A stretch of DNA of 64,000 bases. Source: Chaenocephalus aceratus. Lineage: Eukaryota > Chordata > Actinopteri > Perciformes > Channichthyidae. Below, piece after piece: positions 23,201 through 26,200 of this stretch. A model generated the notes under the pieces. It did not search any database, was not told the DNA's origin, and was given only the letters and a program-made list of their open reading frames with translations. Both the position numbers and the translations under genes were made by a program. The stretch spans positions 62,001 to 126,000 of the forward strand of contig JAMFTG010000527.1 in NCBI GenBank assembly GCA_023974075.1, read 5' to 3'. Position 1 is the first letter of the stretch, and every line of letters starts with the position of its first letter.

Positions 23201-26200
23201 TTCGAATTCTCTAGAATGATGAGAATGAAAGGAAAGGAGGTTTCAAGCTTCCTTTATCACCTCCTTTAGCTTAGGAACCACTGGACCTCCCTAACCGACA
23301 GGAGAAGCGAAAATGCTGCCCCACAATGCCTTGCAGCCGCAGCATTTGCCGTCACTCAACAGTCGGCCGTTCACGGAAACAACCGATTATGACGGAGAAA
23401 TTATATCATGAAAGTTACGGTGCTTATTAAGCATTTTAAAACGTAGGTGGTAAGTTGCCAAAGTGCTTTGTTCTGAACGTTCATCAGTATTATAATCAAA
23501 GAGAGAAATATGAACGTTAGTTTTCACTGAAATTATCAAATAAAGTCAACATCTCAGTCTTTACTGAGCTGTGTGGGGTTTGTTCAACTTCTAAAAGATG
23601 TTTGAATGGTGATATACACAGTGGTAGATGTTAAGGACTAACGTTCATAATAAATACATCTGTATTGATTTAAGATCTTTAGTTCATACAATCATACGTA
23701 TTGGGATCATTTGTATTAATGTGGACCGGAGGGAGAGGGGGACGAGCATAAGTTTCACTTTCCTTTTTTATTTCAATTCCAGCTTTGGTCCTGAAGAATA
23801 TGTTTCTCTGTTGTCCACGTTCATAAAGCAAAGCAGCAGCATCAGAGCACGGAGCAGAGTCTCCAGATGAGTTCACAGCAGTCCCTCGTTCTTATTGAAC
23901 ATTCATGTTGTAGTCCGCTGTATAGAAAACTGTGGTTTCCATGGTTTCCCCACAGCAGCAGACGCACATTCATGACGTCCGCTGGCGCATCATAAACACG
24001 TCGGATAGTGAAAGTGCATTCGGATTCTCTAAAGTACTGCAGTCTCTTCTCCTAAGTCCTTTTGAATTCTCCTATCCACTATCCCTTAACCCCGTGACCT
24101 TTCACTCAGAGGTCAAGGAATAGGAGATAGGTTTAGAACTTAGGAGCTGATCTTTAAACTATCCGACTGCAGCCCTAGCCTTTGTAGCATGCTACTCTCA
24201 CGTTGGAGGAGGACACTCAGTGTTTCCCCTCATCAGTGTTCCGTCTCCATCCTGTTGGTGTGTGTGTCTCGCCTCACGTCTCGTCTCTGCTCCACCTCCA
24301 GGCCCCGTGTTTGGAAACCAAGATCAGTTTATTGGCCTGGCTGTTGTTGTGGATACCTTCCGCAATGACCTCCATGGGATGGATGTAAGTGTGTGTGTGT
24401 GTGTGTGTGTAACCTGCTTGTCTCTTTGCAGGCCCTGTGTTTTCCAACAATGCTCAGTTCCACGGGCTGGCTGTGTTTGTAGATACTTACTCTAACGATG
24501 ATGCCACAGATGTGAGTGTGTGCTGCAGCTCTCCGCCGGCATGCTTCATCCACTCTGAATGGGCATGTTGTTGGCATGTTAACATCGTCACACACAGAAA
24601 GACACTCGGAGAAGCTAATATTGATCCATATCTGATGGTAGACTTGCAGGGATACTCAACTTGCTTTGCCCTGGGTTCACGGGAGACCAGTTACATACAA
24701 GAGTAATAGTATGAGTACAAAAAAAGCATCTATTGTGCATCTATGTATCTGTCAGGGGGCTGGAAGTTGAGTATCACTGGTCTGGTGTGGTTTTGTGAAT
24801 GAAGACGCATCCGCTGCTCCACAGATCCAACCAAACGTCTCTCAGAGGGGCGTGGGGAGGGGCTACTTATTTTCATCTAGCAACAGACAGAGAATCAGCA
24901 CTTTGGAAACAGGGCTGAAACAGAGGGGATTATGGGTAATGCTGCGATGATCTGTCTGGTGTTTCAGCCAATCAGAGACAGGCTCTGGATATATCTGAGA
25001 CCTGGGATATACTGATGAGAAACAGGATGATAGGGGAGCTTTAATAATATGCACATAAATCGTGTGTGTGTGTGTGTGTGTGTGTGTGTGTGTGTGTGTG
25101 TGTGTGTGTGTGTGTGTGTGTGTGTGTGTGTGTGTGTGTGTGTGTGTGTGTGTGTGTGTGTGTGTGTGTGTGTGTGTGTGTGTGTGTGTGTGTGTGTGTG
25201 TGTGTGTGTGTGTGTGTGTGTGTGTGTGTGTGTGTGTGTGTGTGTGTGTGTGTGTGTGTGTGTGTGTGTGTGTGTGTGTGTGTGTGTGTCTCATGTTGAT
25301 AGCTGCTCTCCTGTGTGTGTGTGTGTGATGTTGATAGCTGCTCTCCTGTGTGTGTGTGTGTGTGATGTTGATAGCTGCTCTCCTGTGTGTGTGATGTTGA
25401 TAGCTGCTCTCCTGTGTGTGTGTGTGTGTGATGTTGATAGCTGCTCTCCTGTGTGTGTGTGTGTGTCATGTTGATAGCTGCTCTCCTGTGTGTGTGTGTG
25501 TGTGTGTGTGTGTGTGTCATGTTGATAGCTGCTCTCCTGTGTGTGTGTGTGTGTGTGTGTGTCATGTTGATAGCTGCTCTCCTGTGTGTGCAGCGCTCCT
25601 TCCCCTTCATCTCTGCGATGGTGAGCAACGGCTCGGTGAACTACGACCACGGGAAAGACGGCCGCGCCTCGGAGCTGGGGGGCTGCTCGGCTGAGATCAG
25701 AAACAAAGATCACGACACGTACCTCGCCATCAGATACTCCAAGGGGAGGCTCACCGTATGTACACACACACACACACACACACACACACACACACACACA
25801 CACACACACACACACACACACACACACACACACACACACACACACACACACACACACACACACACACACACACACACACACACACACACACACACACACA
25901 CACACACACACACACACACACACACACACACACACACACACACACACACACACACACACACACACACACACACACACACACACACACACACACACACACA
26001 CACACACACATAATTTTAAAGGGGTGCTAAACATCTTCACTTGGCTCAGTCTATGGAACCCTAACTTTTTTAATATCTGCTAAAAACTCACCTCTTTGCT
26101 CTGGCTTTTAATACACACCACGTACACACACCACGTACACACACTACGTACACACACTACGTACACACACCACGTACACACACCACGTACACACACCACG

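Follow-up and report, generated by a model that had tools for sequence, protein, structure and literature searches.

The closest described relatives of the arrangement reported here are exons 4a and 4b of OGDH, which are likewise tandem homologous exons altering a calcium-related property and which have branch points near the upstream donor (PMC7969005, in extract). In the human gene, 25-41 nt separate these branch points from the upstream donor, a closeness that enforces exclusion, and a branch-point-to-donor threshold of about 50 nt is discussed in the extract. Tandem duplicated exon substitution is described for 236 human events, more than 90% of which have fish counterparts (PMC9741552, in extract). 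According to the same extract, ligand residues that overlap the swapped region are almost always present in both versions, with exceptions that include ACTN1, ACTN4 and ACAN. CFTR exon 9 is a different kind of system, in which an upstream TG run (TG11-T5 in the minigene) is bound by TDP-43, hindering recognition of the exon (PMC12171016, in extract).

Satoh and colleagues (PMC3912170, in extract) report that VIP36 Tyr164 forms a hydrogen bond with the mannose chain and causes a single mode of binding to prevail, whereas ERGIC-53 has Phe154 in its place. The higher affinity of VIP36 is explained jointly by Tyr164 and Asp261, while tolerance of glucosylated glycans is decided at the position of Asp261, which is Gly252 in ERGIC-53. 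Glu98 of VIP36 is said there to clash with a glucose modelled on the D1 arm, and Asn156 of ERGIC-53, a sugar contact, is the counterpart of VIP36 Asn166.

Judging from their sequence, exons 4a and 4b of the LMAN2 (VIP36) gene described below quite probably form a working pair, duplicated in tandem and used in a mutually exclusive way. Exon swaps of tandem duplicates are already known as a kind, and LMAN2 would be a new case among them. Among the open full-text matches listed, none describes a duplication of exon 4 for LMAN2/VIP36, and the strings lman and lectin are absent from the main texts of PMC9741552, PMC5740500, PMC3228551 and PMC9013439. PMC9830730 has both LMAN2 and mutually exclusive exon, in unrelated contexts only; in their extracts, PMC12470603 names lman2 only among genes expressed in the sea bass and PMC3509574 cites the cloning of a catfish L-type lectin. 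Both lman2 forms may already be present in automatic fish annotation.

The coding region of LMAN2 is complete in the window (the whole stretch of 64,000 nucleotides analysed), where it occupies 14080..35409 on the + strand and comprises nine exons, numbered 1, 2, 3, 4a, 4b, 5, 6, 7 and 8. In the spliced translation, AG precedes every exon from exon 2 onwards and GT follows every exon through exon 7. The exons on either side of the duplicated pair are as follows.

14080..14215, + strand: LMAN2 exon 1, coding part, with the start codon and, by eye, a signal-peptide-like N-terminus; ends in phase 1 (spliced translation)
21204..21322, + strand: LMAN2 exon 2 (spliced translation); the residue aligned with VIP36 Glu98 is encoded here and is Gln
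21490..21607, + strand: LMAN2 exon 3; ends in phase 1 (spliced translation)
25594..25755, + strand: LMAN2 exon 5; starts in phase 0, and the counterparts of VIP36 His190 and Asp193 are encoded here
30104..30218, + strand: LMAN2 exon 6; the counterpart of VIP36 Asp261 is encoded here and is kept
33799..33918, + strand: LMAN2 exon 7 (spliced translation)
35249..35409, + strand: LMAN2 exon 8, coding part; a hydrophobic membrane segment (by eye) and the C-terminal tail KRFY, then the stop

The predicted protein has 337 residues with 4a and 336 residues with 4b. It is an L-type lectin that, among solved structures, is nearer to VIP36 than to ERGIC-53. Canine VIP36 is matched at 439.2 bits by the 4a isoform and at 452.2 bits by the 4b isoform, 13 bits lower for the former, and ERGIC-53 comes next at about 142-143 bits. 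The scores against the Pfam family PF03388 (Lectin_leg-like) are 294.1 bits for the 4a isoform and 296.0 bits for the 4b isoform. The gene is probably LMAN2 rather than LMAN2L, in view of the strong VIP36 match and of general background on the two proteins; LMAN2L was not among the solved chains found. The membrane segment and the short tail with a KRFY end, both seen here by eye, are expected of a VIP36-type protein. At the sugar and calcium site, the 4b isoform is the same as dog VIP36 at 10 of the 11 positions checked (96, 98, 131, 162, 164, 166, 190, 193, 260, 261 and 262 in VIP36 numbering). The exception is position 98, whose codon at 21299-21301 in exon 2 specifies Gln instead of the Glu of VIP36.

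Between exons 3 and 5 lie the two versions of exon 4 and the short intron that separates them.

24302..24384, + strand: exon 4a, 83 bp; GPVFGNQDQFIGLAVVVDTFRNDLHGMD; Phe at VIP36 position 164
24432..24511, + strand: exon 4b, 80 bp; GPVFSNNAQFHGLAVFVDTYSNDDATD; Tyr at VIP36 position 164
24385..24431, + strand: intron between 4a and 4b, 47 nt

Each of the two exons stands after an AG and before a GT, and each is entered in phase 1 and left in phase 0. Three other ways of processing this region run into stop codons.

24480..24482, + strand: TAG reached when 4a is joined to 4b, after 168 codons
25692..25694, + strand: TGA reached within exon 5, after 157 codons, when both 4a and 4b are skipped (3-5)
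24493..24495, + strand: TAA reached when the 47-nt spacer is retained, after 188 codons

Among the outcomes considered, the only productive messages are 3-4a-5 and 3-4b-5. A preliminary description of this DNA had proposed two homologous copies of exon 4, of 83 and 80 bp with these entry and exit phases, exactly one of which the reading frame allows, and the coordinates, phases, splice sites and the first two stop codons all agree with it. It had further stated that an Asp and an Asn are kept in both copies and that the copies differ in length by one residue. When the residues are mapped on canine VIP36, Asp162 and Asn166 are indeed identical in the two, and the length difference is one indel with the extra residue in 4a. 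Its estimate that about half of the other loop residues differ was too high, as the 15-residue core that it compared has four differences by eye. The loop length of 4a, as it had also stated, is probably that of LMAN2L, going by the human protein.

Scored with a consensus matrix, the 4a donor ranks within the top 0.81% and the 4b donor within the top 0.88% among the 1481 GTs in the gene region, above the donors of exons 1, 3, 5 and 7 and below those of exons 2 and 6. The pyrimidine tracts upstream of 4a and of 4b are each 81% pyrimidine. The 47-nt spacer is made up of a GT run and a pyrimidine tract and has no run of three Gs. Of its five adenines, two belong to the donor (positions 3 and 4), two to a UAAC (27 and 28) and one to the acceptor AG (46); only those at 27-28 fit a branch point.

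24389..24410, + strand: (GT)11 run in the 47-nt intron, directly upstream of the candidate 4b branch point and tract
24411..24412, + strand: candidate 4b branch-point adenines (UAAC), at intron positions 27-28 and 20-21 nt upstream of 4b

A branch point 20-21 nt upstream of its exon is in the normal position. By sequence, no more than 27-28 nt separate the same candidate from the 4a donor, which is below the roughly 50 nt discussed for OGDH (PMC7969005, in extract). In the preliminary description, the 47-bp gap was said to block splicing of 4a to 4b. An absolute block was an overstatement, since human introns of 43, 49 and 56 nt do get spliced (PMC4463651, in extract). A steric block of 4a-to-4b joining is thus plausible and uncertain rather than absolute. 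According to the same extract, the human 43- and 49-nt introns are G-rich, with a G-rich intronic enhancer. Splicing of a 56-nt intron needs SPF45 (PMC8363638, in extract). Steric enforcement near the 5′ splice site has a precedent in OGDH exons 4a and 4b, which is counted in favour of a working pair. The two cases differ in geometry: in the OGDH extract the intron is longer and a large distance separates its branch points from the 3′ splice site, whereas in LMAN2 the intron is 47 nt long, carries (GT)11 and has its candidate branch point at the usual distance from 4b (PMC7969005). With that branch point so close to the 4a donor in so short an intron, joining of 4a to 4b would be expected to be rare, and any both-exon transcripts that escaped would presumably be cleared by nonsense-mediated decay. 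If both exons are used, the GT-filled spacer would also offer a very short test case for the minimal distance between donor and branch point before splicing fails. A mechanism based on competing RNA stems is not favoured, since the fold of the 321-nt region around the exons is no more stable than those of its shuffles (z -0.68), 28 of 100 of which fold equally well or better, a measure of local pairing only.

The (GT)11 spacer could conceivably do more than keep the two exons apart. As a mutable element, it might set the Tyr/Phe choice in two ways at once, fixing the distance from the 4a donor to the 4b branch point like a steric ruler and silencing 4b through a UG-binding protein of the TDP-43 kind, in which case repeat length would be a heritable dial for glycoprotein export; the proposal as a whole is a long shot. 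By spacing alone, about 11 added GT units would place the branch point at about 50 nt and break the exclusion. The model for the silencer is the (TG)m(T)n tract of CFTR exon 9, in which, as at 4b, a TG run of about 11 units immediately precedes the 3′ splice site of the exon under regulation (PMC12171016, in extract). The CFTR exon is skipped, whereas exon 4 of LMAN2 is swapped, and it is the GT run alone that suggests TDP-43 binding at LMAN2. By this analogy, a TDP-43-like silencer of 4b is possible; so is a length-dependent ruler at (GT)11.

Exon 4 corresponds to residues 145-171 of VIP36, as mapped on the canine protein with the offset fixed at Tyr164. The choice between 4a and 4b would exchange this stretch, within which the first calcium-binding loop of the lectin domain begins. 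Asp162, a calcium ligand, and Asn166 are common to both versions and would stay in place, while the sugar-contacting position 164 would toggle between the VIP36-like Tyr of 4b and the ERGIC-53-like Phe of 4a. At this contact with the mannose arm, 4a shares its Phe with ERGIC-53 (LMAN1) and 4b shares its Tyr with VIP36 (LMAN2) (PMC3912170, in extract). What is a difference between two genes in that comparison would here be a difference between two exons, with Asp261 constant. As in the human swaps, two homologous exon versions would exchange part of one domain, but unlike them the LMAN2 swap would change a sugar contact and not a metal ligand (PMC9741552, in extract).

Through the Tyr/Phe difference at position 164, the 4a and 4b isoforms probably differ in glycan preference, as the preliminary description had proposed in less specific terms and without naming this position. 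The 4a form is predicted to bind the D1 mannose arm more loosely and still largely to refuse glucosylated glycans, because residue 164 is swapped while Asp261 is encoded in the constant exon 6. The Gln that replaces Glu98 would add some doubt to this predicted glucose discrimination. The different loop of the 4a form, one residue longer, perhaps also changes its calcium or pH dependence. It is unlikely that both exons are used and the swap is functionally neutral, giving interchangeable isoforms with equal glycan and calcium binding, although the odds of this overlap with those of the working pair, the splicing part being common to the two. The identity of Asp162 and Asn166 and the nearly equal family profile scores are in keeping with neutrality, but residue 164 is a published determinant of affinity (PMC3912170, in extract), and the length and charge of the loop change as well. 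If both exons of the mutually exclusive pair are used, one LMAN2 gene would produce two cargo lectins that differ at a residue linked to affinity by crystallography, and it would provide a natural single-gene test of how residue 164 and loop length affect mannose affinity, calcium release and cargo choice.

The two exons are clearly homologous and have been separate for a long time. They are identical at 17 of the 27 aligned residues (10 differ, and there is one indel) and at 54 of the 81 aligned bases. When the 4a peptide is compared with the whole window by tblastn, 4b is found at E 1.8e-7 and the next-best row has E 1.1, and the pair aligns as protein with a score of 74, whereas none of 20,000 shuffles scores above 27; the likeness is thus far above chance. 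Among the tblastn matches listed for the 4a and 4b queries, there is no third copy of exon 4 in the window below E 1. By two methods, dN between the copies is 0.28-0.29 and dS is 1.3-1.7; they are old copies, with synonymous sites near saturation. An assembly or haplotype duplicate is rejected because of the low identity at the aligned bases. Relatives of the 4a isoform were sought in prokaryote and viral contig collections, in which 8 + 4 stretches matched the pattern and none was confirmed.

The protein sequences have probably been retained better than drift would allow. When neutral evolution is simulated to the observed DNA divergence, a stop codon appears in 2029/5000 and 1972/5000 runs, and only 2/2971 and 4/3028 of the stop-free runs retain the 17 residue identities that are observed. 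When only one of the copies is under constraint, a stop appears in 862-994 of 3000 runs, and 17 identities are found in 16-46 of the 2006-2138 survivors, over six settings. The simulations, which leave out insertions, deletions and local mutation bias and concern a short exon, argue strongly against two free copies and moderately against one free copy. The two exons are therefore probably more alike as protein than neutral drift would leave them, and neither copy looks dead, as the preliminary description had suggested from their intact splice sites and open frames.

Outside exon 4, the remaining aligned chain is identical to dog VIP36 at 169/226 positions, against 16/27 and 14/27 for the two exon 4 copies. 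Exon 4b is like dog VIP36 in its core (His155, Phe160, Tyr164), and 4a in its first residues (Gly149, Asp152). Both copies being less conserved than the rest could reflect specialisation or relaxed constraint. The latter possibility is counted against the working pair, as is the lower canine VIP36 score of the 4a isoform. The modest likeness of both copies to dog VIP36 also agrees with the reading that one exon is constitutive and the other a long-lived relic or a minor exon, spliced in seldom or never; the decaying-copy model, moreover, does reach the observed identity in the small share of stop-free runs given above. This reading is quite unlikely, since both copies, despite synonymous sites near saturation, have an intact frame, intact splice sites and polypyrimidine tracts, and both Asp162 and Asn166.

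That the pair is mainly a dosage switch, in which skipping or double inclusion would yield decay-prone transcripts that tune the level of LMAN2, is highly improbable, for although all three non-productive outcomes end early and mammalian cells do process fish-derived OGDH reporters into products with both exons and with neither (PMC7969005, in extract), such a switch has no need of a second exon with protein-level constraint.

The intron between 4b and exon 5 has a perfect 228-bp GT repeat of 114 units at 25062-25289, and GT-rich repeats of 37 and 45 bp continue from there to 25590, close upstream of the exon 5 acceptor. Introns 5, 6 and 7 of LMAN2 carry large tandem arrays at 25762-27470, 28930-29250, 30336-33512 and 33926-35205, with units of CA + 13-bp (103 copies), 15-bp (21 copies), 37-bp (86 copies, 3.2 kb) and 57-bp (22.6 copies). 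Open frames at 4634-6225 share a peptide unit, by eye, with the 57-bp array at 33926-35205 before exon 8, so that this array family is present at least twice in the window. Probable fragments of hAT-type DNA transposons are located at 7723-9749 and 62175-62573. In the first of these, a 309-residue open frame at 8188-9117 has a transposase-like look and no Pfam match, and an open frame at 9339-9749 encodes a hAT dimerisation region (PF05699, 40 bits); the open frame at 62175-62573 encodes a BED zinc finger (25.5 bits). At 53763-55712 there is a long low-complexity tandem array in which all six frames are open for about 1.6-1.95 kb.
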